DNA of 40,987 nt. It comes from a virus. Of this stretch, positions 1 through 39,792 are shown piece by piece. The stretch covers positions 1 to 40,987 of the IMG/VR virus record IMGVR_UViG_3300025687_000106, one strand, 5' to 3'. The notes below the pieces were generated by a model. It had not been told where the DNA came from and did not search any database. It worked only from the letters and a program-made list of their open reading frames with translations. The position numbers were made by a program, and so were the translations under genes. The number at the start of each line of letters is the position of its first letter. Within the stretch, counting starts at the first letter, position 1.

Positions 1-8
1 TATCTCAA

Positions 9-81
9 GGGGTTATAGCTCAGTTGGTAGAGCGCCTGCTTTGCAAGCAGGATGTCAGCGGTTCGAGTCCGCTTAACTCCA
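9..81 (+). tRNA. tRNA-Ala (anticodon TGC)
   Basis: Full cloverleaf: 7-bp acceptor stem (9-15 with 74-80, one G-U pair), D arm, anticodon stem CCTGC/GCAGG with loop TTTGCAA, and T arm with TTCGAGT loop. Anticodon TGC reads alanine codons. The 3' CCA is not encoded, unlike the tRNA-Glu at 20154. It is much more GC-rich than the phage genes, so it could be a host tRNA at an integration boundary or an acquired phage tRNA. Confidence 0.95.
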
Positions 82-105
82 TTCTAAATACTTCAAAAAA
101 GTATT

Positions 106-681
106 ATGGCAACTTTATCCGAAGTATTGTTAGCGGTAAATAAAGTATCTGAATCATTGGATACTGAAGTTGAAAGTGCTCGTCAAAAGGTTACTACAAT
201 TTTAGTTAAAGTTGATGATAGGGTAAGTGCTCGTGCAGATATGGTTCAGGCACTTAAAGATGCTAAGTTAAAGCAAGGTGATAACGACGATAATAATCCA
301 CCATCTTTTGGTTCTTCTGATTTTGTTATTGGTTCTGTTCCAGGATCTACATTTGCTGGAATTAAGATAAAAGAAACTAATAATTCGGTTATTAGATTTA
401 AATTTAAAGGAAAACGTGGAGGTTCTGGTGCAGGTGCTGCGGAGACTAAAAAGTTTGAGTGTGGTCAAGCAGTATATGCAGCTATTGCTTTTATGAAAGG
501 GGATAAAATAACTTCTGCAGATTTCAATGAGGAAAATATTAAATCTGCAAGTAGTATGTATGATATTGATGACACAATTGCAAACATTAAAACTTTAAAT
601 GATGAATGGCACGAATCATGTGTGAAAGGTGCAAATGAACTATGGGAAAAATTAAAAAAAGATTTAATAGATTTTAATTAA
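106..681 (+). CDS. unknown 191-aa protein, UGA-free, possibly a virion protein
   Basis: Not recognised. The N-terminal third (residues 1-55) is helical and coiled-coil-like, followed by an acidic/Asn linker near 57-65, a beta-rich middle and a Gly/Ala patch around 104-111, then helical C-terminus. It starts 25 bp after tRNA-Ala. All 13 glycines are GGN and none is UGA, a property shared in this window mainly with the major capsid protein. I infer a highly expressed, perhaps structural protein; there is no homology evidence. It could also belong to the host if the left edge is an integration boundary. Confidence 0.75.
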   Translation: MATLSEVLLAVNKVSESLDTEVESARQKVTTILVKVDDRVSARADMVQALKDAKLKQGDNDDNNPPSFGSSDFVIGSVPGSTFAGIKIKETNNSVIRFKFKGKRGGSGAGAAETKKFECGQAVYAAIAFMKGDKITSADFNEENIKSASSMYDIDDTIANIKTLNDEWHESCVKGANELWEKLKKDLIDFN

Positions 682-3085: not shown

Positions 3086-3541
3086 ATGACTTGATTAACT
3101 AAGAATATAAGAACTAAAGTTGTTATTTTAAATGACAATAGAGAATTTCATATTACACAAGACCAATATGTAACATTGAAGTTAAAATTAGAAGATAGTA
3201 AATTTTCAGACCCATTGGTTATATCTGACCCTGATACATGAGAAATTATGTTTGATGGTAAAGTATCAGCTATAAAAGAGTTTAAACATAAAAGAATACC
3301 AACACATGATAATAAAAATTGGTATTGGATATGTAATTATTGAATAAAACATAAAGTTGATAAAGTAACAAAAGATTTTGAAATTTGTAATTGTATGAGT
3401 AAAATAAAAATTATACCACAAGAATTTTTTAAAAGATTAAAAGAAATGTGATATTGAGAATTATTATCTTATGAAGTTACAAATGAAATTATCAGAGATT
3501 ACAAGAAAAAATATTTTATAAATTGAAATTATTTATGATAA
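3086..3541 (+). CDS. unknown 151-aa protein with Cys pairs
   Basis: Contains WYWICNYGIKHKVDK and, about 12 residues later, FEICNCMSK, giving Cys at three positions that could bind a metal or iron, although the ligand set is incomplete. The rest is mixed alpha/beta. Downstream gene 3535 starts inside its last codons, so they are co-translated. Position in the early replication block suggests a DNA-metabolism accessory. Confidence 0.6.
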
Positions 3542-3705
3542 AATTATATAAAAGTTGAAAATTAATAGAAACATATAAATGAGAAGTAAAAGATATAAAA
3601 AGATGTGCTTTTATATTAAAAAAATATGGAATACAAAGTAAATATCCATGAATTGATTTAATAACAAAAGCAAGAAAAAAATGATATATTTTAAAAAACT
3701 ATTAA
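3535..3705 (+). CDS. small basic protein (56 aa)
   Basis: Overlaps the preceding stop by 7 bp and precedes the next start by 1 bp. Lys/Arg-rich with two short predicted helices; likely nucleic-acid binding by charge alone. No family recognised. Confidence 0.5.
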
Positions 3706-4648: not shown

Positions 4649-4654
4649 CTAATT

Positions 4655-4688
4655 GTTGAAGCTATTCAACTTTTATGTTTTAACTATT
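4655..4688 (+). promoter_or_regulatory. 5' hairpin and T-run ahead of the 4695 gene
   Basis: GTTGAA/TTCAAC (4655-4670) would be the first bases of the transcript. TAACTATT at 4681-4688 is complementary to AATAGTTA at 4637-4644, which overlaps the -10 region, and runs into Ts directly before the start codon. Confidence 0.45.
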
Positions 4689-4694
4689 TTTTAT

Positions 4695-4907
4695 ATGAAA
4701 AGGTATAAAATTGTAAATATAACTGAGGAGAAAATAGTTTGATACTTTTCTGAAGATTGAGCAAAGGATTTTGTTTTAAAGAAAAATCCTAATGAACGTT
4801 TGTATCTTGAATCAATGTTTTGAAATATTGTTACATCAGTTACTGATACAAATACAAATGAAATTTTTGTAATATGGGAAGTGCAAGAAGGGAACAAAAG
4901 TGAGTAA
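4695..4907 (+). CDS. unknown small protein (70 aa)
   Basis: First gene of the nucleotide-metabolism operon. The sequence (KIVNITEEKIVGYFSEDGAKDFVLKKNPN) looks like a small beta-rich domain. The start abuts a T-run without a Shine-Dalgarno sequence. No family recognised. Confidence 0.55.
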
Positions 4908-5375: not shown

Positions 5376-5756
5376 ATGAATAAAACAAGAGAAATGTATA
5401 CTCAATTACAAGATAAAAATTTGTATGAGTTATTAAGACGTAAAGAACAATATAGTTGATATCAAGAGAATGATTATCAAAAATATATTAAAGATACTAT
5501 ATCAGAACTTTTAGAATTACAAGAATGAATAGAAAATAATGATTGAGAGAATATAGAAGAAGAATTAATGGATGTTATTATGCAGATTTGACAATTAATA
5601 AACAAATTGTTAAATGATTGATTAATAAACAAACTTGACTTTTGAAAACAAAAAAGTAAAATACTAAAAAGGTCACCAAACCTTAAACTTGGTAAATATA
5701 TTTGATTACAACAAGAACATTATGAATGGATGAAATACAAAGCCTCTCAAAGATAG
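5376..5756 (+). CDS. MazG-like all-alpha NTP pyrophosphohydrolase
   Basis: Residues ~48-80 give the MazG pattern: ELLELQEGIE, then ENIEEELMDVIMQIGQLI, with the metal-binding Glu/Asp set EExxD, followed by FGKQKSKILKRSP (the K...RR/RP tail). Such enzymes hydrolyse (d)NTPs to (d)NMPs. In phages that make modified cytosine, an all-alpha enzyme of this superfamily removes dCTP; the neighbouring predicted dCMP hydroxymethylase makes that role attractive here, but it is inference. It starts 2 bp after dut and overlaps the next gene by 35 bp. Confidence 0.82.
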
Positions 5757-6009
5757 TGAATGAAAAGCGGCTTTACAATATATACAACCAGATTTTTTAT
5801 TACAAATGTGAGAAGTATTAAGAATGTGAGCTGAAAAATATAAACCTATGTCATGGGTTTGAGTTGATACAGAACTCCACTATGCAAGTGCTATGAGACA
5901 TTTATTAGCTTGGAAGAAATGAGAATTAGTAGATAAAGAAAGTTGATTATCTCATCTTATTCATGCGGCTTGTAATTTACATTTTATACATTATAACGAA
6001 AAAAAATAA
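5722..6009 (+). CDS. DUF5664 dNTP nucleotidohydrolase-like protein
   Basis: Carries the DUF5664 signature GAEKYKPMSW, then ELHYASAMRHLLAW, GESGLSHLIHAACN-like segment (here KESGLSHLIHAACNL). These proteins are annotated as dATP/dGTP diphosphohydrolases or pyrophosphohydrolases in the MazG fold. The 95-aa length is normal. The frame overlaps the MazG gene end by 35 bp and the next gene's ATG by 1 bp, so this is a compact nucleotide-pool cassette. Confidence 0.85.
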
Positions 6010-7073
6010 TGATATATATAATCCCATTAGGAGACCAATTCCCTACAACGCAATTATTAGATTATAATAAAATGAGACCTGATGTTTACTATATATTACA
6101 TTCTTTAGAATGAGAAGAAGTAAAAATAATATGTAATACAAGAAATAAATATCAGATAGAAAATAAACATTATAATTTATTGGATTATAATGAATTAGAT
6201 TTAAAAATAAATGAAAATGATATACTTATTATATACAATACACCTTTTATTAATTTTTGATGATTATGGTGAAATGAATATAAGAAACAAATAGAATTTA
6301 TTAATAGATTTAATAATAATAAAGTTTATACATATGTTTTTGATTTAAATAAATCTTTTAGTTTTAAAATGATAAATAAGATTTGTGATAAATTTAATTT
6401 AGAAAAACAAAAAACTATAGATATTATTTCAAATTCTACATTTTTAAGTTGAAATTTATATAATAGAGATAAAATGATAGAAATATATTCAGAACAATGA
6501 ATAAATGTAAAAGAATTTATTTATATACCTGTTATATGAAATGTAAGAAATTTAATAGAATATAAAGAAATAAAAGAAGAACCACTTTATGATACTATTT
6601 ATTATTGAACTACTCGTTGATGAGCAAGAAATAAATTTATAAAAAAGTATTATGAAGATATGGAATGAAATCATTTATTAATATGACCATGGAATAAAAT
6701 ATTAAATAATGATAATCACTTTTATAAAAGCAAAACACAATTTAATGAATTATATAATCTTATTAATAATTCTAAGGTATCTATAATGACGTGAGATGAA
6801 AGTTATTATAACAATAGTATACATCATAGATTAATTGAATTAAGTTTATGTGGTACACTTATTCTTATTGATTATGATTATGATATAGAATATAAAATAT
6901 TTTGAGAAGAAAATAAACATTGGTATATTGAGAATAAAGAAGATGTACATAATATGATAAAATTTTTAAAAAATAATCCTAAATTAAGAACAAAATATAT
7001 AAAATATCAAAGAGAACTTTTAGAACAAAAATTTAATACTTATACAAAATTACAATATGAAAGATTTATATAA
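6009..7073 (+). CDS. GT-B-like glycosyltransferase, possible DNA-base glucosyltransferase
   Basis: 354 aa. The C-terminal half has the CgeB/GT-B-type layout: IYYGTTRGGARNKF (a loop like the second nucleotide-binding domain start), then LLIGPW, then SKVSIMTGDESYYNNSIHHRLIELSLCGTLILID and a helical tail with NPKLRTKYIKYQRELL. The N-terminal half is a Rossmann-like domain. It shares 17 bp with the downstream thymidylate-synthase-family gene, so the two are translationally linked. That pairing recalls phages that glucosylate hydroxymethylated bases. Alternative: a surface or polysaccharide glycosyltransferase. Confidence 0.72.
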
Positions 7074-8368: not shown

Positions 8369-8941
8369 ATGCAATTAGTTAAAGATATAAATACATTTTT
8401 TAGAAAAGATAAACAATATTGAATAAATGAATTATTTAAAGTAATGTATTCATTTTGTATTGAACAAAATAATTGTTTTATGTTAACGAGTACATATAAA
8501 ACTAAATGATTAAATAGAAATAATCATAGAAAAATAATGTGATTATTAAAAAAATATAAATTTGTAAAAAGTTGGAAAGTATATAATTCTAAATATAAAA
8601 AGAAATGTACTTACTATAGTTTATCCACAAAATTATATAATATATGTAGAAAAATATCAACAAAATTAGTTAATAAATATAATTTTATACAATTACATAA
8701 TGATATTAATATAAATGATGTAAAAATATTTATAAAAAATATATATAAAAAAACTGAATTTATTATTGATACTAATACTAAAATAACGAAACATATTTTT
8801 AGATTAAAATGAATAATCTATAAATTATTTAGAGATAATCAATGAATAAAAATATCACAAAATATATGATTTAATAAAATAAGAATATATAATTTTATTG
8901 AATTTAATAATTTAGTAATGAAATGATATGAAAAACAATAA
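8369..8941 (+). CDS. leader-controlled basic protein, module 1 (winged-helix-like)
   Basis: 190 aa, Lys-rich. The N-terminal ~85 residues (YGINELFKVMY, KTKGLNRNNHRKIMGLLKKY, then KSWKVYN and CTYYSLS) read like a winged helix: helices followed by a beta wing. A second basic alpha/beta part follows. It is clearly paralogous to the minus-strand gene at 31914-32462, with roughly half of the first 85 residues identical by eye, including DIN.FF, YGI.ELFK, KGLNRN and KSWK. Function unknown: autoregulatory DNA/RNA-binding protein or a toxin of a type III-like pair. Its end overlaps the next gene by 14 bp. Confidence 0.8.
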
Positions 8942-14759: not shown

Positions 14760-15098
14760 ATGTCAATAATATACTGAAACTGAAACTGATACTGATATTG
14801 AAACTGAAACTGAAACTGATACTGATACTGATACTGATACTGATACTGATACTGAGACTGAAACTGATACTGAGACTGAAACTGATACTGAGACTGAAAC
14901 TGATACTGAGACTGAAACTGAAACTGATACTGAAACTGATACTGAGACTGAAACTGATACTGAGACTGAAACTGATACTGAGACTGACACTGAAACTGAA
15001 ACTGATACTGATACTGAAACTGATACTGAGACTGAAACTGATACTGAGACTGAAACTGAGACTATAATAAAATAGTTAAAACTTTAATTACTAAATAA
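14760..15098 (+). CDS. Gly-X dipeptide-repeat protein, UGA at every second codon
   Basis: Read with UGA=Gly, ATG 14760 opens a 112-aa protein: five leader residues, then 48 Gly-X units with X = Asn, Tyr or Asp, then a short tail. A higher-order unit Gly-Asp-Gly-Asn-Gly-Tyr recurs. It has a family 1 variant cassette at its start, and the next gene begins 7 bp after its stop. The frames giving Thr-Asp/Glu and Leu-Lys/Ile are also open across the tract, but lack a start with this context. A disordered, sticky or silk-like protein is the natural reading. Alternatively the DNA repeat itself matters. Confidence 0.7.
14775..15062 (+). repeat. 288-bp hexanucleotide repeat ACTGAN
   Basis: Forty-eight uninterrupted 6-bp units TGANAC-type, with N mainly A, T or G and one C, and one TAT variant. 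Many units are grouped as 18-bp ACTGAG-ACTGAA-ACTGAT blocks. Size changes by unit slippage would keep frame. Confidence 0.95.
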
Positions 15099-15508: not shown

Positions 15509-15673
15509 ATGGAACATTTAGATTTAGTGATATGGTTACTTTGATACCAACTTGTAATAATACTTGAAGCATACGTATTTCATAAAATAAGCTGAAAAAA
15601 CGTGGAAATGACCACTTGAAAAGCAAGATTAATCTTATTGATATGGATTTGAGTATGACTTTTAATTTATTAA
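15509..15673 (+). CDS. small membrane protein (54 aa)
   Basis: Two hydrophobic helices (about 5-22 and 38-54) around a charged loop with KISGKNVEMTTGK. Preceded by a family 1 cassette. Forms a pair with the next membrane peptide; holin/antiholin-like or exclusion functions are possible. Confidence 0.5.
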
Positions 15674-15681
15674 TAAAAAGA

Positions 15682-15816
15682 ATGAAAATATTGTGATGAA
15701 TACTTGTGTTTATAGCTGGTGTTATGATGAATAAAGCTACTGAGGATGTATTAAGTTATGATTTTTTTGTAATGATACTATGACAAATAGGGGCAGTTTT
15801 ATTTTTTATTGATTAA
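15682..15816 (+). CDS. small membrane protein (44 aa)
   Basis: Two short hydrophobic helices with a charged turn (MNKATEDVLSYD). Nine bp after the preceding membrane gene. Confidence 0.45.
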
Positions 15817-15820
15817 AATT

Positions 15821-16049
15821 ATGAAAAATTTAACCCAAATATAAATATATATCCTTGAGAAACACTTAAAGAAGTAATAAAATTATATTGAGTAAAACTC
15901 CTAAGCATATTTCAAATATAATAACTTGAAAAACTCCGATAACATATAAATTAGCATTTGAATTAGAAAAAGTTTTTAAAATATCTGCTGAATTTTGGTT
16001 AAATATGCAAAACTGATATGATTTATGGGAATTGAGAAATAATAAATAA
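15821..16049 (+). pseudogene. HigA/VapI-like antitoxin, frameshifted
   Basis: Across two or three frames the segments read: YPGETLKEVIKLYGV, then TPKHISNIITGKTPITYKLAFELEKVFKISAEFWLNMQNGYDLW. This is the HigA order (HPGE.LKE.....S.....I..GKRPIT...AL.LA...G.S.EFWLN.Q..YDL). The ATG at 15821 is in a different frame from the first segment, and a -1 shift at an A-run separates the two segments. No toxin gene lies next to it. Either a dead gene, sequencing errors in A-runs, or, less likely, programmed shifting. Confidence 0.75.
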
Positions 16050-16072
16050 TTTTAATTTATAATACAAGAGAT

Positions 16073-16489
16073 ATGAAAACAAAATTAAATATATTACAAT
16101 GAAAATTTTTAGCAAAAGTTAGATGATATACAAAAATGCCAAAATGATACTATTTATGAAAATTATTAGATGAATGATGAGAGCCTACAATGGAGGAAAT
16201 GGTAGAAGTTTGAAAAATGATTACTAATTTTTATGTAAATAAGACAAAAGAACTTGAAGAAAAAACAAAACCAATCAAACAAAAAGAATTTAAAGATTTT
16301 ATTTTAGAAAAAATTGATGAAGAATTTTTAAAACAAAAAAATGAAGAATTAGATGAAAGTGTTGTTTGAACAGAGTTTAAAATGGATTTAGTGGAAATAA
16401 AAGTAATATGATATTGGGAAAAATGAACTTGGTATGATTATGAGATTAAATTTTGAGATGAAAACATAAATTGAACAAAATATTTTTAA
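16073..16489 (+). CDS. unknown 138-aa protein
   Basis: Helical N-terminal half, a Lys/Glu coiled-coil centre, and beta-like end (DLVEIKVIGYWEKGTWYDYEIKF). Preceded by a family 1 variant at 16051-16075. No family recognised. Confidence 0.55.
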
Positions 16490-16521
16490 ATAACTCACTT
16501 ATATAATATAACAAAATAACT

Positions 16522-16866
16522 ATGTATATATGATGTAGTAAGTATTCTATAAATAAAACAATTAAACTTTGTCCTTTTATACAATGAGATGTATATAAAT
16601 ATAATCAACAAGAAGCTATCTTCTTCTTAGAAAAAAAACTAAGAGAACTTATATCAGACAGAAATGAATATAAAACATCTCTTAAAATACATTGAAAACT
16701 TATTAATATATCAGACTGAGTCCATTATATAATCTATACAAAATCATGAAATAATGAACTCCTTATACTTTCATATTCATATAAAAAATTTATATCAAAT
16801 AAAGAATTAAACTATATACAAAAATTTAATATACATAAAATTAAACCAAAATGAAAATATAAGTAA
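16522..16866 (+). CDS. unknown 114-aa protein with atypical codon use
   Basis: Two Cys near the start and mixed alpha/beta sequence. Uses CTT, ATC, TTC and CTC more than its neighbours, like the gene at 3707, which hints at a common foreign source. Preceded by family 2 cassette at 16488-16512. No family recognised. Confidence 0.5.
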
Positions 16867-16930: not shown

Positions 16931-17233
16931 ATGACATATAAACAACAAATAACACAAGAATTAAGAGAGTTATGAATATATAACTGATTAGAATATGAAA
17001 GATGAAATATATTACTAAAAGAAGGTTTTTATATATCGAAAGAATTAATTAAATTTCTTAAATATAATGAACCAGTAAAAATTACATCAAATAATATAGA
17101 AATATTTAGGTCCTATTTAGAAGTTACAAAACATACTGTAAGAAATAATGTAATTAATAGAAAATATCTTTATCTTAAATGAGGCTATTATAATAAAAAT
17201 AAATTTATTAAATATATAATAGAAAGAATATAA
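16931..17233 (+). CDS. unknown 100-aa protein
   Basis: Helical and basic; YLEVTKHTVRNNVINRKYLYLKGGYYNKNKFIKY could be a winged-helix-like end. Its stop overlaps the next start by 1 bp. Confidence 0.5.
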
Positions 17234-17574
17234 TGAATAAAAAATATAAAGTAATAAAATCTTTTAAAGATGAAGAAATATGATTTATTAGTGTATGAAG
17301 CTTATATGAAAATATATCACGTATAGCTAATAAAATATTAGAAGTAAATTGATTTATAGAAGAAATAAAAGAAAAAAAAGAAAAAAAATTTGAAAATTTA
17401 CCTAAATATAAAGTATGAGATTATGCTGTTATGATAACTAATAATTATATAGATTATATAAAAATATTTTCTATTACAAAATATGAAAATAATGATATAT
17501 TATATAATGATAGTTGGAATGAAAATGAATTAAGAAAACCTACACAAAAAGAATTAGATTTATATTTCAGATAA
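17233..17574 (+). CDS. unknown 113-aa protein
   Basis: Lys/Glu-rich helical start and beta-like middle (KYKVGDYAVMITNNYIDYIKIFSITKYEN), a pattern of small SH3-like barrels. Last gene before the packaging promoter. Confidence 0.5.
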
Positions 17575-20153: not shown

Positions 20154-20230
20154 GAGACTATGGGCAAGTTGGTTAAGCCGCAAGACTTTCAATCTTGAAA
20201 TCAAGGGTTCAAATCCCTTTAGTCTTACCA
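20154..20230 (+). tRNA. tRNA-Glu (anticodon TTC), CCA encoded
   Basis: Acceptor GAGACTA/TAGTCTT (one G-U pair), anticodon stem CAAGA/TCTTG with loop CTTTCAA, T arm AAGGG-TTCAAAT-CCCTT and encoded CCA. The loop centre is TTC (positions 34-36), so it reads GAA/GAG. GAA is a very common codon here, so the phage may boost supply. Confidence 0.93.
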
Positions 20231-22124: not shown

Positions 22125-23504
22125 ATGTGATTTGTAAGCTGAACTAAAATAAAATTAACAGCAAAACTTAATGCAGCAGATACAAGTTTAACAGCAGATA
22201 CAGATGTGTGAATAACTGCAGGTCGTTTGTATTGAGTGAATAATAATCAGGAAGAATGGATAGATTTTACTTGAGTAGCAGCAAGTTGAAGTAATTATAC
22301 ATATTCATGATTAACTAGATGATTAAGCCAAACAGCAGACCCTGCTACAGCTTGAACATGAAAAACATGGATAGCATGAAGTGAATTTGTAGTAGTACAA
22401 ATGCATGACCAAATGAGTGATAAACAGAATGGAAGTCCTGTAGCTGTATATGCTGATGCAACAGCGAGAGATGCTGCTATAACAAGTCCAAGTAATTGAA
22501 TGTCTTGTTATTTAACAGCAGAATGAGTATTTAGTGATTATATATGATGAGCATGGACTGATAGAGCTGCAGATACTACACAAAACATGAGTGAAACAGT
22601 TGCTTGAAGATGAGAATTATGAACACAAACTGAAAATGATAATGGTACAGAAACATGAGGTACATGAGCTCCTTTAGTGACAAATCCATTAAGACTATGA
22701 AGAAGTATTCAAAAACAAGCATATACTTATGATGAAGATACATGAGCTGCGAATGCTTATGTAGTTACACTTACTCCTGCTCCAACAGCCTACATAGAAT
22801 GAATGAGAATCAGTGTTAAAATATGAGTTTGAAATACAAACACATGAGCAAGTACAATAAATGTGAACAGTTTATGAGCTAAAGCAATACAAGATAGAGA
22901 TTGAGATGCATTATCAGCTAATCAACTTATAGAAGCACAATTATATGATTTAATATATGATGGAACACAATTTAAATTAATTACAGTTGAAAAAGCAAGT
23001 GATAGTGATGTTACAACATGAACAGATACTATAAAATATGCTTCTCCAAAACAATTAAAAGATACATATTGACAATTATATGGTACAACAGTGTCAGTGG
23101 CATTAGAACAAAAGACATCTAGTTGAACTTATGATTATGAGATAGCTATTTGAGCAGCATGAAATTATTATGAAGTATGGTTTACGATATGGGCATGAAA
23201 TACAGCAGGTTCTCCTGATGCTCAAGCTGAGAGTGTTTTTGTTAAATGAATAACTTGATGAGATAAAACAGTATGGACTTCATGAACATCAAATGTAAAT
23301 TTTTGAACACAACCATGAACACCAGTTTTTCCTACATGAAGTAGAAAGTTAACACTACCTGCTGTTACATATTGAAGTGATTCAGCTACAATAAATAGTA
23401 TAACAATTAATTGAAGTTGAAACTTAGTAATAAATTATACAGCAACATTAGCAGCATGAGGTGAAACTCAAATAGATTGTTATTATGCTAATATTACAAA
23501 TTAA
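22125..23504 (+). CDS. tail fibre-type protein (459 aa)
   Basis: Residues ~190-285 match a common phage fibre module: NPLRLGRSIQKQAY, AYVVTLTPAPTAYIEGMRISVKIG, NTNTGASTINVNSLGAKAIQDRDGDAL, LYDLIYDGTQFKLIT. The rest is repetitive Thr/Ser/Gly/Ala beta sequence with many UGA glycines. Likely binds the cell surface or sits at the baseplate. It ends with an Ala/Gly-rich strand and a Cys-Tyr-Tyr tail. Confidence 0.75.
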
Positions 23505-26549: not shown

Positions 26550-29500
26550 ATGAATGAATTTAACAACAAAGATATAGTTAAATTTAAAAAGTTATTAAAT
26601 GAATGATTACCTGCTGAAGAAGCTAAAAGTATTATATTAAAAGATAAACAAAAACCTAAACAATATAATGCTACTGATTATTTATTTTGAACAACTGTTG
26701 AACCACAACAAGTACAACAAGAAAAAAAAGTAGAACCTATGTCATTAAAAGGTTTTTATGAATATGGTATAAAACCTTCTGCTAAACAATTAGTAAAACA
26801 ACCTAAAGAAATCGTAGAAAAAACATATGATATAGCAAAATGATGATTATGAAGAATTAAAGAAGCTTGAGAATGATTAGTTATACCAAGAGAAGATATA
26901 TGAAGAACATATACATTTCCTGAAGCAGCGACTAGATGAGCATGATGAGCATTACAAACAGTAGGTTCACCTTTTTTTGGTACATTTTTTCAATGAGCAC
27001 AAAATATATGATGAGTTGTAGAGCCTTTAGCTAAAGATATATATGAAACTACTTGAGAAGTTATACCTGATGTAGTAAAAGATATTATAGAAAATAAAAT
27101 TGTTGACCCTAGTATAGAATGAGTAAAGAATTGGTGGGATAAACAAACACCTGAACAAAAACAACAATTAAAAAATGTTTGAGTATGATTAGAAGTATTG
27201 AGTTATTATGCATGATTTTGATTATATAAAGCATTAAAAGGTAAAGCTCCTATAAGTCCTAAAGTTCCTACTACAAAACCTACAGTACCACCTAAAACTA
27301 CTTATCCATTAGATATACCTAAAGTTCAAAGGCCACTTAAACCAGTTTGAAAAACTTTAGAAGCATGATTGAAAGAAGTTCCTACTATGAAAGCTCCTTT
27401 TTCTATATCACAATCATTAAGAAATATACAAAGATGACCTAAAGAATTTAAATGAGTTGTATGAGAAACTCCTAAAATAACTCAAGTAAAACCTGATAAA
27501 ATAATAAAAGAATGAATTAATTTAACCAAATCTGATGATTTAATACAAAGATGATTAAGACCTACTATTAAAGGTAAAGATACTTGAGATAAGATGGATA
27601 TTTATAAAACTAAGATTAGAGAATGAGTTGAATCTACAACTAAAAGAAAATGAATACCAGATGATTGAATAGATGCATTAAATAAGGTATGAGAAAGTAA
27701 AAAAGATGTATGGAAACAAATAGAAAATAATCAATCTTATGTAAATAAAGTTACAAGAGAATGAGATATTGCTGATGATATTTATAAATTTTTAGATAAT
27801 GAAGAAAATTATGCTACATTAAAAGCATATCCTTGATTAGAAAAGAAACTTACTAAATATATAGAAAATTTTACTACAAATAAGAAATTAACACAACAAC
27901 AATTATTAGATTTAAAAACGAAACAAGCTGGTAAAATACCTTCAGATAAATGGGCTGAATTACTTACTACGGATAAAGAACAATTATTAGCTGATAGTAT
28001 AGTATCAAGAATTATTTGAAGAAGATTTGATGATGCTATAGAAGAAGTTCTATGAGTAGTTAATAAAAACTTAATGAGAGAATATTGAGCATTAAGAACT
28101 TTAGAAAAAGATTTAGCAAGAAGAATGTGAGTATTTACAAGAAATACGAAATGATGACTTACTTGATTAACTGATATATTTACTCTTCCTGATATTATAG
28201 TAGGTTGACTTACTTGAGATTTAAAACAATTATGAAAATGAGCTTTATGAAAAATAGCTTCATATACAATTAAAAGATGAGAAAATCCTAATGTTATTAT
28301 AAAAGAACTTTTTAAAATACATTCTCCTAAAAAACCTTGATTTATAGAAAAAGCTATATGAACTCAAGAATTTAAATGAGTACCAAAAAAAGGTATAATT
28401 TGACCTAAAAATATAACAAAAGAAACAAAATCAATCAAAAGTACATCAAATATAGCTAAAACAGGTAAAAATTCAATCTCTGAGGCATCGAAAACATCTT
28501 CTAATAAAAATATAAGTAAAACTAAAAAGAATGTCTCTAAGAGTGTAAAAAAACCAACAAAAGTAAGTAAAGCTGATGAAAGAGTAAGAAATGCTATAGA
28601 AAGTCATAAACAAAGACAAAAAAATGATTGATTTGAATTATTAGATAGATTAAAAGAACGTTCTGTTCAATTAACTAATAAATTAAAAGATGATGCTTTA
28701 AAATGATTAAGAGAAGAATATAGAATAACTAATAAAAATATTTCAAAGTATAAAGATATATTTTGAAATAAAAAACCTACAGATACTATTACTGTTTATA
28801 GATGAGCTAAAAATAATATAAATATATGAGACCAAGTAACTATAGATAAATTAAATGCTCAAAAATATATATGATTAAGAGAATGAGCTCAACTTCAAGA
28901 AATGAAAGTTAAAGTATGAGATTTAATAAGAAATGAATGATTAAGAACAGAATTTATATATGTACCTAAAAAATCTATTAAAAAACCATTAATTAATAAA
29001 TGAGGTTATATAAATCCTACTGAAATTAAAAACTCATTAAAAATACTTAATACTAAAAATATAACAACAACTGCTTGAAAAATAGCTAAACAATTATGAA
29101 TAGAAGTTTGAAAAGTAAAAGAATTATTAAAATGATATGTACAAAAATACTGAACAAAGCTAAAGGATAAGATATGAGAAATCTTTGATGATTTGGCAGA
29201 TAAGTTGTGAGTAAGAAGTAAACTACTTGCTTGAGAGAAAGCACAATTTGCTCCTTTATGAATGAAAAAAAAAGCTATAGATTTAACGAAAGCATGAAAA
29301 AAGCCTAATGAAGTATGGAAAAAGACTTGATGGGAAAAATGAAAAGATGGGAAGTGGAGATTTGAGATAGATGATACGAAAGCTAAAGTAAAATCATATA
29401 TGCAAATAGAATGATGAGAGGGAACAAAGCTAACAAATATACTCAAACATGATGATTTATATAAGCAATATCCTAAATTAAAAGATACAAAAGTTATATT

Positions 29501-30179
29501 TGATGATTTATGAGATACTACTGCTAAGTTTATACCAGAATCTAATAAAATTATATTCAATGTAAATAAATTAAAAACAAAATGAACACTTTGGAAAGAT
29601 AGAGTGCTAGATAGAGCATATTCACAAAGAATGTCTGCACCAAAAGCCCCAAAGCGTTTACAATGATTATACAAAAAATGAGATGAAAAATCATATCAAG
29701 TCTTTGAATTAACAGCAAAAGATAAGAGTAATTTATTACATGAAATACAACATAATATTCAGAAAGTAGAATGATTTACTAAATGAACAAGTAGTAAAAC
29801 AGCATGAAGTTATAGTAAATATAGAAGAACTGCTTGAGAAGTAGAAGCGAGAAATGTAGAAAAAAGAGCATTATTAAGTAAGCCTAAAAAAATATGAAGA
29901 AGACCATCACTTACAGAGGATATACCGAGAAGTAAACAGATAGTTACAAAAGGTTCACAAATGAGTGCTAAACAAATAGATGATTTATTTGATTTCTTTC
30001 CTAAAAAGACTCCTAAAGAAAAATTACTACAATTCAAGAGAGAAATTAAAGCTTGAATGCATAATGATTTAATTAATAAAATATTAGAAAAACCTAGAGA
30101 AGCTTTTAGTAAAAGATATATTATAAAATATATGAATGAAAATACTTGAATTAAAAAACCTAATAAAATAACTAAATAA
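26550..30179 (+). CDS. large polyvalent protein with ART-like and metallopeptidase domains (1209 aa)
   Basis: Pro/Lys linkers separate several modules. Near residues 745-830 there is VYRGAKNNINIGDQVTIDKLNAQKYI..VKVGDLIRNEG...FIYVPKK, the order seen in ADP-ribosyltransferase-like phage domains. Around 1060-1100 there is LLHEIQHNIQKVEGF (H1064-E1065-H1068) and AGEVEARNVEKR (E1097), a zincin-type metallopeptidase module of phage polyvalent proteins. Such proteins are thought to be packaged and injected to act early in the host. Catalytic HExxH is intact. Many glycines are UGA. Confidence 0.78.
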
Positions 30180-30291: not shown

Positions 30292-31917
30292 ATGAATAAA
30301 GAGAAAGAAATAGTTTCATTGGAACAATTACATTTACAAAAAATACAAAAAATTATTAAAGAAAAATGTAAAATTTTAAATGAAGCAGCAAAATCTGATG
30401 AAACTAAACAAGTACTTATAGAAATATGTAAAAAAGACCCTATCTACTTTTTTACTTATTTTTTAGTTACAGACCGTAATCCTGGTTTAATTCCTGAACA
30501 ATATTGAAATGAAATACCTTTTATACTATTTGAATTTCAAGAAGAATTTATTAAAGATGCTTGGGATTGTATATTAATGTGAAGATTACCTCCTGAAGAA
30601 AGAACTGAACCAACTGATATGTTTAGTGAAAAATCTCGTCAAATGTGATTCTCATGGTTATTTGCTTGATTACAACTTTATGCTTATATATTTCATGATA
30701 TGAAATCTTTATATATATCAATGAAAGCAGATGAGGTAGATAGAGCATGAGATATTAAATCACATTTTGAAAAGATTCGTTTTATGATACGTAATCTACC
30801 TCAATGGATATTACCAAAATGATTAAATAAAGAATCAGGTACAGAACATAATAAATCTATGGTTATTTCTCGTTGAGATTGAACTTGAGTTATTAAATGA
30901 GAATCTGCTAATCCTAATGCTTGAAGATGAGGTACTACAGCTTTTACAATCTTTGATGAAATGGCTTTTATGCAATATGCTCAAGCTATTAATATGGCAA
31001 TAGCTTCTTCTACTCCTTGTCGTTTCTTTAATAGTACACCAAACTGAGAATGAAATGAGTATTATAGAATGAGAAAATTAGCAGTTGATTGAAAAATAAG
31101 ATATCATTCTTGCATGCGGTACGAAAATCCTTTTTATACTAAAGAATGGTATAAATGGAGAACTGAGTCTATGACTAAAACCCAAATTGCTCAAGAAATT
31201 TTAATAGACTATAATACTGCATTAGTTTGACGTGTATATCCAGAATATAAACATTGAACAGAATTAATTGAATATGATGATAGTTTACCGTTGTATATAG
31301 GGATTGATAATTCACATGGTGGTCAAGATAACAATGCTCTCGTTGTATTACAAAAAGATTGACATTATTTTAATATTATTGATAGTTGTGAATTCAATTG
31401 TAGTCCTAGACAAATGGCAGAAATAATGGCTAAACAACCTACTATACAAATGAGTAAAAAACAATTGGATTTTTATAATAAATATAGAGAAATGAAATTA
31501 CCTATATTTGTAAGTGATTGTTATGATACACATACTTCAGTTTGAGATAATACAATATTTTGATATTATCAAGATGTATGAATATTTTTAAATATACCAT
31601 CTACTAGAAAAAAACAAGAACAAATACAAATAGTAAGTTCTAATTTACATAGAGTAAGAGTAAGTGAAACTTGTGCAGATTTTAGTTCATGTATACAAAA
31701 TTCTATTTATCCTGAAATTAAAGAAAATAGTATGAGAACTACTCCAGCTACTTTACCAGTTCATTCTTGGGCGAGTCATATAAGGACAAGTTTTGAATAT
31801 TTAATTGTATGGTTAATAGAACAAGAAAAATATACTAATGTAAAACCTAAGAGAATAGCAACAGAAGAAAGAAATCCAATAACTTGAGAAGTAGAAACTA
31901 AATATGTCTATATTTAA
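30292..31917 (+). CDS. terL: terminase large subunit
   Basis: Packaging ATPase/nuclease, 541 aa. Walker-A-like SRQMGFS at residues 115-121 (Gly from UGA), a coupling region with SMKADEVDRAGDIKSHFEKIRF, Walker B TIFDEMAF with D222-E223, then STPNGEGNEYY. The nuclease part begins at YIGIDNSHGGQDNNALVVL (D339) and includes FVSDCYDTH with a later acidic residue, as in RNase H-like terminases. The length is normal. It is unusual that the minus-strand gene is inserted between it and the portal; their stop codons overlap. Confidence 0.93.
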
Positions 31918-32462
31918 GTTTTTTTCATAATTAAATGATTAAATTCAAATATTGTATATATTGTTTTTCTTAAATTATTTCTTTCTGTTATTAACCATAG
32001 TCATTTACTTTTAAATAAACAATATAAAACTCATCGTAACCTAAATAATCTTTTTCACTCAAATATAATAAATTCAGTTTTAGGATACATTTTTTTTATA
32101 AATTGTTGTATCTTTTCGATTCTCATTCATTCTTTTAATTCAATATATGTAGATTTTTTACTTAATTTAACTATAATATCTCTACAAATCATATATAAAT
32201 CATTACTTATACTTCTATAAGTACATACTTTTCAATATGTTTTATTATATTTTTTCCAACTCTTTATTTTTCAAGCTTTTTCTAATAAATCTAATATTTT
32301 TCTTAAACTATTTCTATTTAATCATTTAACTTGATATGTAGTAGTTAATAAAAAACTATTATTATTTTCTATACTCTTAGTATAAAAAGTCTTAAATAAT
32401 TCAGTTATTCAATAATCTTTATTTTTTTTAAAAAATCAATTTATATCTTGTATTATTCTCAT
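31914..32462 (-). CDS. leader-controlled basic protein, module 2 (winged-helix-like)
   Basis: 182 aa, the only clear minus-strand gene. Paralogue of the 8369 protein: DINGFFKKNKDYGITELFKTFY, QVKGLNRNSLRKILDLLEKAGKIKSWKKYN, CTYRSISNDLYMICRDI, then FIKKMYPKTEFII and IFEFNHLIMK at matching positions. A helix-helix-wing layout is likely in the first 85 residues. It has its own promoter, structured leader and terminator. Its stop overlaps the terL stop. The position between terL and portal is that of a moron. Confidence 0.82.
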
Positions 32463-32839: not shown

Positions 32840-34792
32840 ATGTTAGTTTGAAATGAATCTAAAAATACAGAGAAAGAATTAGAAACAATAAAACAAATAA
32901 CTGAACCAGAAGTAAAACCATATATTTCAAGTAAAGAAGATGAAGAGATTATTTGATTTATTACTACAAGAAAAAGACTTATGGCTGCTAAAAGAAGTCA
33001 AATGGATAAATCTTGGAAACAATATCAAAAACAATATGAAGCATTATTTGTACCTTATAGTGATTGAAGAAGTTCTAGTAATGTACCTTTAGAAAGAGCT
33101 ATAGTTGAATTATTTGTTGCAGAAGCTATTAAAAGACCTACTACATATAATTTTAATGCATGAATTGAATATGATTTTCAATCTCAAGTATTAGAAAGAG
33201 TATGGGAAGATGATTGGTCTATAAATAATAGAGATAATGAAATATTAGATAATGAGTATTTAACTGCTATATATGGTACATCTATTATATATAATGGTTA
33301 TAAAAGAAGTTATAGAGTTATAGAAGATTTTGATTGATATAATGAGGAAACTGGTAAAATAGATTATGAAAGAAAAATGCAAACAAAATCTGATATATTA
33401 TTAGAAAATATAGATATTAGATATTTTTGGATAGATGAAAGAGCAAATTCTATAGAAAAAGCTATTGATTGTATATATGAAAGTTATATTACATATGAAG
33501 AATTTAGAGAATTTTATTTAGATAATGAATATGATGATGAGAAATTAAATGCTATTGTTCCTACTTATCAAAAACAAGATGAACATAGACCTTATGTTAT
33601 TAATGAAGAAAGATGAGATTGAGAAGCTAAATTTGTTAAAATAACACAATATTGGAATACAAAATTAGATAGACATTATACTATAGCTAATGAAAATGTA
33701 TTAATTAAAAAACATCCTATATTGAATGCTACTCATTGTATACCTTTTACACCAAGACAATATGGTAAAAATTTATTTAGTATTTATTGATATGGTTTAT
33801 GTGAAGCTTTAGTTACATTCAAATCAGATATTAATAATTTAAGAGAAATGTTGATGGAAGCTATTAAAAAATCTAATCAAGATGTAATAGCTTTATGAAA
33901 TTGATTAGAATTTGATGGTAATAAATTCGCATATAATAATCAATTTATAACATTTAAAGGTAATTTACAATGAAATTTTCATCAATTATCTTGAACTCCA
34001 CCAAATCAATCTATATTTACATATTTACAAGAATTATTTAAACAAATAGCTATATTTACAGGTATAGATATAATGAATATATTATGAGAACCACAACAAA
34101 CAGCATATCAAACAGCTGTACAAAAAGAAAGTTCTTTACAAAGAGTAAATGTAGTACTTAAAAATAGAGATGCAGCATTTGAAAGAATAGCAAATCAACA
34201 TAAAGATAATTTACAAATGTTTTATCCATTAAAACTTGTGAGAGAATTGGTAAAAGTTGATAAAGAAAATAATCCTATGGAAGAATGAGAAGCTAAATAT
34301 CCTACTATAGAAACAACAAAAGTTAAAGGTAAAAGATTTGCAAAAGATTGAATAAAAGAAGTATTTGAAGTTACTCCTGAAAAAATAAGATGAAAAATTA
34401 AAATAGATGTAAGTACTGATTTAAATACTCCAACTATTAATGAAGTAGAAAAAGCACAAAAATCTGAATTTTTTATTAAATTAGCAGAAATAACAAATGC
34501 TTATAATGCAGATAAAGATTTAGAAAGTATTATACCTAAAAAGAAAGCTATTATGGACCTTGCTGAACTTAATAATATAGATATTATGAGAAGTGATAAT
34601 AATGAAGTTGCAGAAGAAAAACAAAAACTTTATGAAGAACTTCAAAGTATGATGAAAGGCACAAGAACACCACAACAAAGACCAAATTTTGAATGAATTA
34701 AAAAAGAAGCTGAACTACAAAATATGGCACAAGTTGCTCCAGAAGCAGCAGTTCAATGAGAATTACCTACTACACCTAATATAGCAAGATAA
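32840..34792 (+). CDS. portal protein
   Basis: 650 aa. Helical core regions including TTRKRLMAAKRSQMDKSWKQYQKQYE, then a beta-rich clip/stem portion, and IAIFTGIDIMNILGEPQQTAYQTAVQKESSLQRVNVVLKNRDAAFERIANQH, which is characteristic of portal stems in short-tailed phages. The size is in the range of P22-like portals. Its DNA-exit ring would be bound by terL. C-terminal third is coiled-coil and Gln-rich. Confidence 0.82.
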
Positions 34793-36074: not shown

Positions 36075-36650
36075 ATGGCAAAAATTAAGAAAGAACAAGT
36101 TAAAGAACTTGATAAAACTAAAAATGCAGATATAATTAAAAAAGATACAGTTACAAAAGAAGATTATAATAAACTTTTATCTGATTTTAAAAATCTTGAG
36201 TCATTAGTAAGAAAAACATGAGACCATAATAAAATTAAAGAGTATGAAGATACTAAGAAAACTATGGATAAATTTAGTTTTTCTATTAAATTATATCCTA
36301 CTGAAGAAGCAGATTATCCAATAATAAATTGGAAATTAATAAGAAATTATGTTGCTAATGAAGGTAAAGATGTTGACCAAAGAATAAAATTAGTATATTT
36401 AAAAGATTGAAAAGAAGTTGAGCAAGAAATAAAATTAGTTGATTTCGTAAGAATACTTAAAAGAACTGAACCAATTCTTGCTGATAAACTTGAAAATCTT
36501 GATTGAACTGATGTTTATGTAGATAAAAAAATTAATGCTGAAGAAGATATTATGTTTTATGTTTTAAAACCTAAAGATGATATTTTTAAAGTTAATTTAA
36601 ATTATCAATGACAAAAACTATCTATTTTATCTACTTATTTAAATGCATAA
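36075..36650 (+). CDS. unknown 191-aa head-region protein
   Basis: Acidic, mixed helix and strand, with two beta-like parts (LVYLKDGKEVEQEIKLVDFVRI; INAEEDIMFYVLKPKDD). Starts 2 bp after the scaffold stop. No family recognised; may be an assembly or minor capsid protein. Confidence 0.55.
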
Positions 36651-36991
36651 TGTATATTTGAGAAAAAGAAATCAAGGAAATTAAAGGTTGAACTGTAATT
36701 TATACAGATGATACTAAAGAAAAATTTTCTAAAAACTATGCAAATTATTTTGCAACTAATGAAAAAAAATCATTAGATGAATTTTATCAATATAAACAAC
36801 ATAAAATTATAGCTGATATAATGAAGTTATTTATTGATAGTAATTCAACAATGAGAGAAATACAAGCAATTTATGATGGTTTAATTGAAAGTATTGAACA
36901 TAATAAAAATGAAGCTATAAGTAAAATGTTTAAAGTATCTCATCCAAGTGAAATATCATTTAAACAAATTAATGATATTGTACTTAAATAA
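36650..36991 (+). CDS. unknown 113-aa head-region protein
   Basis: Starts on the last base of the preceding stop. Helical, with ADIMKLFIDSNSTMREIQAIYDGLIESIEHNKNEA. No family recognised. Confidence 0.5.
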
Positions 36992-37015
36992 TTTAATTTA
37001 ATAATTTTGTAAAAA

Positions 37016-37492
37016 ATGGCAAATCCAACAGATTCTGTTAATAATGTACAAAATTTTGAAAGAGCAAAAGGTGTAACAGAAATTGTAGAAGTTTTATTTT
37101 CTGCTTCTGTTGCTGTAGAGGAAGGTTCTTTAGTATACCCAAATCCTAGTGCTGCGGGACAATATACTAAAGCTGATGCTACTGCTGGTTGAAATTTTGG
37201 TGTTATTAGACAAACAATTGCATCTACTGATGATGATTATGCTTCAACAAAAACTGTAAAAGTTGAAGTACCTAGAGAAAACAATGTTGAATGGTTCTTT
37301 ACAGTATGAAGTGGAACATTCACACAAGCAGATGAAGGTAAATTAGTTGACTTAGCTGATGAAAAATCAGTTGCTGTCGATGGAACTACAGCTCCAACAT
37401 TTTGGATTACTAAATATATTTCAGCGACTCGTTGAAAAGGTATATTAGCTTGAAATCTTGGTTCTGGTCCTGCTTTACCTGCTACAACTTAA
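37016..37492 (+). CDS. head decoration-like protein (158 aa)
   Basis: Beta-rich, Thr/Ala/Gly-rich: VTEIVEVLFSASVAVEEGSLVYPNPSAAGQYTKADATAGGNFGVIRQTIA, which has the shape of capsid decoration proteins (DUF2190-like/LamD-type). Directly upstream of the major capsid gene. Most glycines are GGN, with only a few UGA, an intermediate between capsid and other genes. Confidence 0.68.
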
Positions 37493-37516
37493 TATTAATT
37501 CTTAATTAAATAAAAA

Positions 37517-38533
37517 ATGGCTGTTTTAACTACATTTAGTTACGAAGATTCAGTTGATTTGATTAATAGAGAGTTTGATGCTGGTAAGCTTAATCCTCTT
37601 GATAATTCAATGAAAGAATCAGGAATCGTAAAAACAAACACTGTTCCTGCGAATAGTGGAGGTACTAGAAGACATAAAGAAGTACCTGTAGGAGAACTTT
37701 ATGCTAATGATAAAGCTGAAGGTGGTCTCACTACAAAAACTAGAGTTCAACAAGGATATTATAAGGATACTACTGCTAGAAGTTTTTCTAAAAGTATTGA
37801 TATTACTTATGAAATGAGAACTCTTAATAAAGTAAATGAAATTTACAATGCTGCTAATTTTATTGGTGGTGTAATTACTAGAAGGGAAGATTTGAACTTA
37901 AGTTTATTCTTATCTTTTGGTACTGCTACTTCATATACTAATATGGATGGTAGAAGTGTAGATATTTCAACTGGTGATGGTTTATCACTTTGGAATACTT
38001 CACATACATTAACAGGTTCAAGTACTACTTATAGAAATAGACTTGCTAATAATCCAGCATTCTCTGAAGGTGCACTTGAATTAATGGAAGATTTATTCGT
38101 TACTAATATTTATACTAATCTTGGTGAACAAGTTGGTTGTACTCCAGATACTATCTTTTCAACTGATTATCCAACATTAGTAAATACTATAAGAAGGAAT
38201 TTACAATCTACTGCACAAATTTCAGCTCCAAATGAAGGTGTTGTTAATGTATATAAAGGTAAATATAAACATGTAATTCTTAATAAATTTGATATGAATG
38301 CAAATGGTGTTAAGGATGCTACAAAGAAAAATTATTGGGGAATGGCTGATTCTAAAATCTCTTCATTCTTCCATGATGTATATTCTTCTCCTGAAATGAA
38401 ATATCCAACTAACGGAAACAATGGTGAAGATATTGAAACCCTCGATTGGACTTTTACATCAATTGGGATAAATGACTCTTGTGTTGTTGCTGGTAGAGGT
38501 TTAATGTTCTCATCAGGTGATGGAACTGCATAG
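37517..38533 (+). CDS. major capsid protein (HK97-type fold likely)
   Basis: 338 aa. RHKEVPVGELYANDKAEG, RREDLNLSLFLSFGTA, SLWNTSHTLTGSSTTYRNRLANNPAFSEGALE, and a C-terminal domain with HVILNKFDMNANGVKD and a final beta strand are typical of phage major capsid proteins of the Mu gpT-like/HK97-type kind. All 29 glycines are GGN; none is UGA, in contrast to almost every other gene here. Followed by a G-rich hairpin. Confidence 0.85.
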   Translation: MAVLTTFSYEDSVDLINREFDAGKLNPLDNSMKESGIVKTNTVPANSGGTRRHKEVPVGELYANDKAEGGLTTKTRVQQGYYKDTTARSFSKSIDITYEMRTLNKVNEIYNAANFIGGVITRREDLNLSLFLSFGTATSYTNMDGRSVDISTGDGLSLWNTSHTLTGSSTTYRNRLANNPAFSEGALELMEDLFVTNIYTNLGEQVGCTPDTIFSTDYPTLVNTIRRNLQSTAQISAPNEGVVNVYKGKYKHVILNKFDMNANGVKDATKKNYWGMADSKISSFFHDVYSSPEMKYPTNGNNGEDIETLDWTFTSIGINDSCVVAGRGLMFSSGDGTA

Positions 38534-38552
38534 TTAATAAAGTTATTGAATC

Positions 38553-38584
38553 TTTAAAATTCTGGAGGTGGTTGGGAATTTAAA
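38553..38584 (+). other. hairpin with G-rich loop after the capsid gene
   Basis: TTTAAAATTC pairs with GAATTTAAA (one bulged A) around a loop GG-A-GG-T-GG-TT-GG (38564-38575), which could form a two-layer G-quadruplex. GGAGG is also a perfect anti-SD match, but it lies ~32 bp before the next start. Such a G cluster is very rare in this AT-rich sequence. Confidence 0.6.
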
Positions 38585-38599
38585 ATTAACTATAAAAAA

Positions 38600-39331
38600 A
38601 TGTCTTATAATTTGAATAGTAATTACTGAAGACTTGTTGCTCAAGCTAATACTGGTAAAGGTTTAGGTAAAACATTTTATGTAACTGCTGTTACAGGAAC
38701 TACTGCTGATATGTTACAAGATTTGTTTACACCTGACTTTGATTGAGTGACTAGAGTTTATTCTACAATTACTTTAGCATTAGCAGCTACTGTTGCTGAT
38801 AGAGGTGATACAATTGTTATTGCACCTGATTATACTACTGCAATTACAGATGCTGAACTAACAACTGCTGGAACAAATTGAGTAGAAATTGTTTATGCAA
38901 GTGGTACTGATGGATGAACTCAAATAGCTGTTACAGAAAGTAAAGCACTTCCAGCTACAACAACTTGAGATTTGTTTAATGTAGTATGACTTGTAGAAAT
39001 TACTTCTATTATAGGAGTTGTTACTACTGTAATAGAAACACAGGCTTGTAATTTAAAACTATCAACAGTTTCAAATTCAGCTACTACAGACATATGTGCT
39101 GATTTAGATATTAGTGCTGATGCTGCACAATCAAGATTTTCTATAACTTGAACGTTTGCAAATGCACTTATTAATACTGCTAAATGAGTACCTGTAGCAA
39201 TTCAAGCTACTTCAATCGTGGCACAAGAAGGAACTATTATAGCTACTACTTCTGCTACAAATACTTGAGAAGTTAGATGGCAAGTACAATATAGACCATT
39301 AACTGCATGAGCGAGAATTTATGCTGCTTAA
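38600..39331 (+). CDS. virion surface/structural protein (243 aa)
   Basis: Ala/Thr/Gly-rich beta protein with RVYSTITLALAATVADRGDTIVIAPDYTTAITDAELTTAG, a pattern common in phage structural proteins of beta-helix type, followed by repeated strands and a short C-terminal sheet (GEVRWQVQYRPL). Downstream of the capsid gene. Likely head or tail decoration. Confidence 0.62.
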
Positions 39332-39369
39332 TATATTCAAACTACTCTGTAAGAAATTATAGGGTAGGA

Positions 39370-39792
39370 ATGAGTTTATTAAATAACAATTTAAACATGA
39401 AACATATAGTATATTATGATGTTTTTGATGCTAAGAATGATACAGGTACAGAAGATAAAGCATTTTTTGTATGAGATTTTAGACATTGCGTATTAAGTAT
39501 AAATACAGCTTCAAGTGCTGCTTGTACAATAAAAGTATACTGAAGTATTGAAGAAACTGCTCCTGATTTTACTTCTGCTGCTTCTGCAACAAATAGATAT
39601 GACACAGTAAAAATTATAGATTTAGAAGATTGAACTTCAATAGCTTGAGATACTGGTATTGTTTATACATGAACAGATGCAGATAGAAACTTTGAAATTA
39701 ATATAAATGCTTTGAGTTATGTAGCTATAGACATAACTGCTATTTCAGCATGAAAAGTAACAGCAAGACTTCAATTAACAAATAATGCTTAA
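39370..39792 (+). CDS. small beta-rich structural protein (140 aa)
   Basis: SSAACTIKVYGSIEETAPDFTSAASATNRYDTVKIIDLEDGTSIAGDTGIVYTGTDADRNFEININALSYVAIDI describes a compact beta sandwich often found near tail genes. AGGGTAGG lies just upstream of the ATG as ribosome site; an internal ATG (39397) is a second option. Confidence 0.6.

Follow-up and report, generated by a model that had tools for sequence, protein, structure and literature searches.

Avoidance of UGA glycine codons in the capsid block of a code-25 phage, its relatives and EF-Tu of code-25 bacteria

Introduction

The virus record IMGVR_UViG_3300025687_000106 (40,987 bases, GC 24%), whose whole length is referred to here as the window, writes most of its glycines with UGA, a stop codon of the standard code: 639 of 838 glycines, or 0.76, over all 59 open reading frames (ORFs) listed. 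An earlier note on this DNA had counted 29 GGN and no UGA glycine codons in the major capsid protein (MCP) gene, and 13 and none in a gene at 106-681, and had proposed that UGA is selected against in the most highly made proteins. Here, we ask why a codon that serves most glycines of a phage is absent from its capsid gene, and whether the same avoidance is found in related phages and in bacteria that share the code.

Genetic code and UGA use across the phage genome

The coding density of the window is 0.10 under code 11 vs 0.85 under code 25, which places the phage among those whose in-frame UGA is read as glycine. In alignments of code-25 relatives, glycine (GGN) was the top non-TGA codon class opposite TGA, in the large terminase subunit (TerL, 151/327), portal (39/105), decoration (24/38) and MCP (27/32) genes. 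In distant standard-code homologues, glycine was again the commonest residue opposite TGA, but only at 66 of 366 positions.

The UGA share of glycine codons was 180/225 in the non-structural half, 285/340 in the tail module, 58/79 in the packaging module and 35/55 in the genes after MCP. The three genes that the earlier note had described as mostly UGA were indeed so, namely a putative glycosyltransferase (6009-7073, 14/16), a putative tail fibre (22125-23504, 45/53) and a putative polyvalent protein (26550-30179, 86/100), all labelled as in that note. Two plus-strand genes served as controls: the terminase large subunit of the packaging module (30292..31917, phrog_2, E 8.2e-24; UGA 22/28) and a portal-like protein (32840..34792; UGA 18/28), the label of which comes from a homologue, as the gene at the same place in the standard-code phage L002 matches the head-tail adaptor family phrog_332 (E 4.6e-7). 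Codon-score and native-gene statistics used 52 of the 59 ORFs; 106-681, 3448-3705, 4653-4907, 5689-6009, 14760-15098, 15616-15816 and 31914-32462 (minus strand) were left out.

No tRNA-Gly(UCA) of the phage's own was detected in the window, and the sole phage-own tRNA found by ARAGORN was a native tRNA-Glu(ttc) at 20154-20230, in the gap before 20337. Two further features were observed. The 112-aa ORF at 14760-15098 is composed of (Y/N/D)G repeats in which 48 of 48 glycines are UGA; at the DNA level it is an array of hexamers containing CTGA 47 times, which could represent either a glycine-rich protein or a non-coding repeat. The translations of 8369-8941 (+) and 31914-32462 (-) look alike by eye and are possibly paralogues, the latter lying on the opposite strand within the structural module.

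The gene at 106-681 and the foreign contig end

The count of 0/13 UGA in 106-681 was reproduced; the gene, however, is not native. Positions 1..653 (+) share 100.000% identity over 653 nt with L148 (IMGVR_UViG_3300034418_013823), a standard-code phage contig (GC content 37%, coding density 0.95 under code 11), and the match then stops. Read with code 11, the L148 copy of the gene extends to codon 465; homologues in L149 (92%) and L150-L152 (75%) are 464 to 466 aa long and contain no UGA. The ORF at 106..681 (+) is the truncated 5' part of a gene (phrog_1462, function not known) that comes from a foreign phage with the standard code, and a tRNA-Ala at 9-81 sits in the same foreign piece. The most likely origin of 1-653 is a chimeric assembly; less likely, a very recent transfer cut the gene short at the end of the contig. 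As a piece of a standard-code phage, 106-681 offers no evidence on the codon use of this phage, and one false case is removed from the evidence for UGA avoidance.

UGA depletion in the capsid block

The MCP gene (37517..38533, +, 338 aa) encodes its 29 glycines by 21 GGT, 7 GGA and 1 GGG codons, in agreement with the earlier count. The contrast between 0/29 and the 562/714 of the 51 other native genes is highly significant (Fisher 2.7e-19; hypergeometric P over all listed ORFs 1.5e-19). TGA trinucleotides do occur in the gene off-frame (6 and 22 in the other two frames), and the absence is in-frame only. Upstream, the decoration-like head gene (37016..37492, +, 158 aa; weak match to the virion structural protein family phrog_1731, E 0.0097) has UGA at 4 of 15 glycines (P 5.9e-5), and is intermediate as had been noted before. 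Downstream, the gene at 38600..39331 (+, 243 aa), for which family searches gave no match, is also intermediate and low in UGA (10/20; hypergeometric P 0.0088). MCP, 38600-39331 and the decoration gene are the lowest-UGA phage genes among those with at least eight glycines.

The MCP label rests on homologues and on the gene order TerL-portal-decoration-MCP, which point to a major capsid protein. Its homologues L201 and L003 match the major head protein family phrog_1650 (E 1.9e-4 and E 0.0076, respectively), and L201 also matches a 'major capsid protein' in MW202647.1 (E 1e-7, 26%). Neither searching PDB sequences with an alignment of MCP (no meaningful match) nor TBLASTN of MCP against annotated phages (no match) added to this. 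The AlphaFold2 model of MCP has a mean pLDDT of 30, too weak to read an HK97 fold from, and that of the decoration gene is weak as well (pLDDT 61). A scan of 36400-39500 revealed no terminator and 11 promoter-like sites, fewer than in shuffled sequences (mean 18).

Recurrence in related phages

Searches with MCP, TerL and portal identified related code-25 phages, and three independent contigs (L001, L045 and L046) carry the capsid block; L047 and L199 belong to a contig nearly identical to that of L046 and were left out of the count. The nearest relatives of the phage are these code-25 phages (82, 67 and 64% identity), vs 33% for L002. The same MCP gene is also carried by the standard-code phages L002, L201 and L202. 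L003 was rejected as a code-25 case, as its few TGA codons are not at glycine positions.

Decoration and MCP genes together have UGA at 4/44 glycines in the window, 13/43 in L001, 9/42 in L045 and 8/38 in L046, vs UGA fractions elsewhere of 0.80, 0.80, 0.67 and 0.63, respectively. The difference from the remaining plus-strand ORFs (99 aa or longer) was significant in each relative (L001 193/241, Fisher 2.8e-10; L045 252/377, 1.6e-8; L046 210/331, 8.1e-7). Of the positions at which GGN is shared with the window, 8/16, 8/18 and 3/11 differ in the third base for the three relatives. Thus, GGN has been retained while synonymous third bases turned over, which disfavours a recent import of the gene. 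In L046, two HNH-homing-like ORFs (15989-16528 and 17044-17574; UGA 15/18 and 15/21) flank the decoration gene before MCP. The presence of such UGA-rich ORFs amid low-UGA genes implies that the effect is gene-wise, and a regional effect was ruled out.

Prophage capsid genes of another family (PF05065) in code-25 genomes gave a mixed picture. Among 14 places, 7 (L203, L205, L206, L207, L214, L215 and L216) were not counted since code 11 explains the stretch about as well. Three of the remaining seven were depleted relative to their neighbours, namely L204 (13/33 vs 30/38), L211 (6/29 vs 17/26) and L212 (9/34 vs 20/24), the latter two matching PF05065 below the family cut-off. The other four were not, i.e., L208 (19/28 vs 16/26), L209 (21/29 vs 22/33), L210 (25/34 vs 24/37) and L213 (10/28 vs 12/34). 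The depletion is therefore no general rule for capsid genes. All of these are integrated copies, and some of them may have decayed.

EF-Tu and ribosomal proteins in code-25 bacteria

A search pattern built on a universal RpoC motif, with a glycine written as UGA, identified 39 stretches in GTDB genomes. For candidate hosts, S10-operon and background stretches were then taken from 20 of the genomes so identified, together with 49 genomes of the order to which one of them belongs, and 59 genomes yielded both. With 1 to 34 background ORFs (200 aa or longer) in each genome, values for any one genome are rough; the genomes are also related and do not represent independent trials. The UGA fraction of EF-Tu was below background in all 38 genomes with EF-Tu in the stretch (in four of them the ORF is partial, with 199 to 308 aa). 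The candidate from G020 was excluded as another GTPase, which we take from its sequence to be LepA-like. S10-operon ribosomal proteins were below background in 47 of 59 genomes (Wilcoxon 1.9e-6) and not below it in 12, the exceptions varying in size and sign; in G045, G040, G037 and G059, ribosomal proteins are richer in UGA than the background (e.g., 84/121 vs 161/409). EF-Tu thus gave no case of the UGA-rich, highly expressed host genes that the earlier note had counted against its proposal, and ribosomal proteins gave few, although those 12 genomes go the opposite way. Background UGA falls with non-glycine GC (rho -0.66, 58 hosts) and thus follows AT richness, which implies that the depleted genes withstand a mutational push. 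A TerL profile of the phage, run against 379 phylum-level and 353 class-level genomes, gave no close relative; there was one weak match (E 2.8e-11, G031).

One genome of the Absconditabacteria order, G021 (828 of 1,045 kb seen), allowed a broader view. Its low-UGA proteins presumably include DnaK, AtpD, EF-Tu, enolase, S1, FtsZ and EF-Ts, and the lowest-UGA genes also include probable transferred ones and ordinary housekeeping genes, the latter presumably UvrB and ProRS among others. Over 460 genes with at least 12 glycines, an EF-Tu-like codon score correlated with UGA at -0.04 raw and at -0.31 with non-glycine GC fixed; by tenths of the score, the top and bottom were both UGA-poor (0.206 and 0.242, vs 0.30-0.38 between). 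Expression and foreign or GC-rich origin overlap in this genome. Several long proteins of G021 stand apart: L180 3879-6779 (UGA 1/70; the highest EF-Tu-like score of the 460 genes), L192 2825-5563 (0/74) and L185 3529-5136 (0/54), which resembles a Bacteroidota-type secreted protein.

Codon preferences outside glycine

For Ile, Thr, Phe and Leu, too, codon choice in MCP deviates from that of its own genome. It avoids ATA and ACA and takes ATT and ACT instead; these changes are GC-neutral, and GC content therefore offers no explanation for them. We built a codon score from non-glycine codons only, comparing host EF-Tu with each host's own background in 37 hosts. Among 52 phage genes, this score ranked MCP, 38600-39331 and the decoration gene first to third, and it correlated negatively with UGA over the 28 genes with at least eight glycines (rho -0.60; -0.55 without MCP). 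After amino-acid normalisation the same three genes still ranked 1-3 of 28, and in the relatives MCP and decoration were within the top four, in both cases with an EF-Tu training set that still contained the G020 GTPase.

Over all genes, and with that same training set, the correlation between score and UGA was -0.49 in the window (-0.45 given GC) and -0.87 in L001 (-0.75 given GC); it was not significant in L045 (-0.45) and L046 (-0.25), where it became 0.06 and 0.12 given GC. Few single amino acids reached significance in the relatives. When the score was trained on three AT-rich hosts alone, MCP ranked 8 of 52 and rho was -0.36. Overall, the phage capsid block favours the same codons as host EF-Tu, weakly so with AT-rich hosts alone. 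Judging from such codon proxies, the capsid-block genes would be highly expressed. The earlier proposal, that the proteins made in the highest amounts are selected to avoid UGA, is thus supported for the capsid block by the relatives, host EF-Tu and non-glycine codons, and loses the gene at 106-681 as a most likely artefact.

Relation to known systems

Similar observations have been made in other codes. In Blastocrithidia, reassigned stops are depleted in highly expressed genes: as here, in-frame reassigned codons decrease with protein abundance and codon adaptation index, cytosolic ribosomal protein genes have few of them, and AUA shows a similar but weaker trend (PMC12153298, in the text available). 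Unlike the present case, this is a eukaryote in which UAR encodes Glu and UGA encodes Trp, with eRF1 as competitor (PMC12153298), whereas here UGA encodes glycine in bacteria and phages with no RF2 above cut-off. In the ciliate Oligohymenophorea sp. PL0344, reassigned UAA and UAG are rarer in highly expressed genes and translational inefficiency has been proposed, although for a eukaryotic nuclear code (PMC10553269, available text).

On the phage side, head genes are known to favour codons of highly expressed host genes, which was attributed to translational selection (PMC2266997, 2008, available text). Those phages use the standard code and the effect covers head and tail genes as a class, whereas here it is confined to the capsid block and tail-type genes are UGA-rich. 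Code-25 phages of Absconditabacteria/Gracilibacteria are tailed, of ~40 kb and dense in in-frame UGA for glycine, as is the phage studied here (PMC13059738, PMC10746230). One of them, RSA-ATP1, encodes its own tRNA-Gly(TCA) (PMC13059738), unlike the window, in which none was found. Gene-wise UGA avoidance was not found reported in the available text of these two papers, and the word 'capsid' is absent from that of PMC10746230. In open PMC literature (open-licence papers only), we found no report of UGA avoidance in code-25 bacteria or phages. This case unites the depletion of reassigned stops and the host-codon bias of phages in a bacterial code and its phages.

Possible explanations for UGA avoidance

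It is probable that translational selection for efficiency keeps a costly UGA out of the capsid block. AT mutation pressure would drive glycine codons toward UGA genome-wide, and UGA would be read as glycine but more slowly, or at a higher cost, than GGU and GGA. Selection for efficiency (fast elongation, few stalled ribosomes and low demand on the UGA-reading tRNA-Gly) would then retain GGN in the most heavily made genes, leaving the capsid protein and, to a lesser degree, its neighbours UGA-poor.

A recent acquisition of the MCP gene from a standard-code phage, with UGA not yet accumulated, appears unlikely. Standard-code relatives with the same gene are known, as mentioned above, some low-UGA genes of G021 look transferred, and the capsid block has a GC content above the genome average; against this, the closest relatives are code-25 phages in which the shared block is likewise depleted but does contain some UGA, their synonymous third bases have turned over, and the non-glycine GC3 of MCP (0.098) is ordinary for the genome. 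Base composition as such, with less UGA in GC-richer genes, is even less probable. In each of the four phages, UGA does drop as gene GC rises (rho -0.68 to -0.73), as it does with rising genome GC in hosts, but gene GC itself includes glycine codons and amino-acid content, and UGA is uncorrelated with non-glycine GC3 (-0.28, p 0.14). Moreover, the putative tail fibre gene has the GC of MCP (0.32) and is UGA-rich nonetheless, and the A-to-T third-base preferences in Ile and Thr are GC-neutral.

Least of all do we favour a timing or dual-host device, by which UGA-free genes could be expressed where UGA is poorly read, either early or in a host with the standard code. Some phages are reported to match spacers of code-25 as well as standard-code bacteria (PMC10746230, available text); however, the non-structural, packaging and tail genes are so dense in UGA that a UGA-free capsid alone would be of no help in a standard-code host, and the direction is opposite to recoding that delays late genes. 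In that pattern recoded stops are enriched late and absent early, and here the capsid is lowest while the non-structural half is UGA-rich. For the same reason, and since the capsid is late by function, early expression in a UGA-poor state, as the earlier note had suggested, is disfavoured. An accuracy explanation, in which occasional misreading of UGA keeps it out where errors cost most, also has little probability. Proteomics of a code-25 bacterium did detect individual peptides in which a UGA position held another residue (PMC4032931, available text). Conserved glycines, however, carry UGA as often as others, e.g., 2289/6062 vs 1684/4494 in ribosomal proteins, with odds ratios of 0.99 for these (10,556 glycines), 1.45 for EF-Tu, 1.48 for TerL and 0.98 for MCP. 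Selection for accuracy at the level of sites was thus rejected, and the avoidance is gene-wide, which fits speed or tRNA demand better than site fidelity; under the accuracy reading, a gene-wide cost of errors in abundant proteins may still play a part.

As for what would make UGA costly under selection for efficiency, the earlier note had also named competition by release factor. An RF2 model gave no match above cut-off in 49 host genomes, which makes release competition unlikely. The RF1 model matched in 46 of the 49 (above cut-off in 19); strong sub-threshold RF2 matches coincided with RF1 places, and nine more were weak (E 2.6e-7 to 5.7e-4). tRNA gene copy number was rejected as a cause: G021 has one tRNA-Gly(tcc) and one (tca), labelled SeC by ARAGORN, and no (gcc) in the part seen. 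The best remaining candidate, close to the limiting tRNA-Gly that the earlier note had offered as well, would be slow or scarce decoding by tRNA-Gly(UCA). The codon UGA gives one G-C pair, and GGA and GGU give two. The tRNA may in addition be held scarce, as its U34 could reach UGG, an ambiguity that has been mentioned for these bacteria (PMC8629427, available text). It is conceivable, if rather doubtful, that the tRNA-Gly(UCA) pool is kept low, possibly against misreading of UGG (Trp) as glycine, so that UGA acts as a standing speed limit and all heavily expressed genes purge it, most strictly in the capsid of phages without their own tRNA-Gly(UCA). If this were true, expression in these largely uncultured bacteria, and in their viruses, could be gauged from sequence alone by the UGA fraction. 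The present data indicate that a long-established change of UGA to glycine still bears a translational cost in bacteria and phages. This would already give a rough measure of expression in organisms that mostly resist cultivation, and whether a reassigned codon ever equals the old ones could be tested by comparing UGA-rich with UGA-poor genes.
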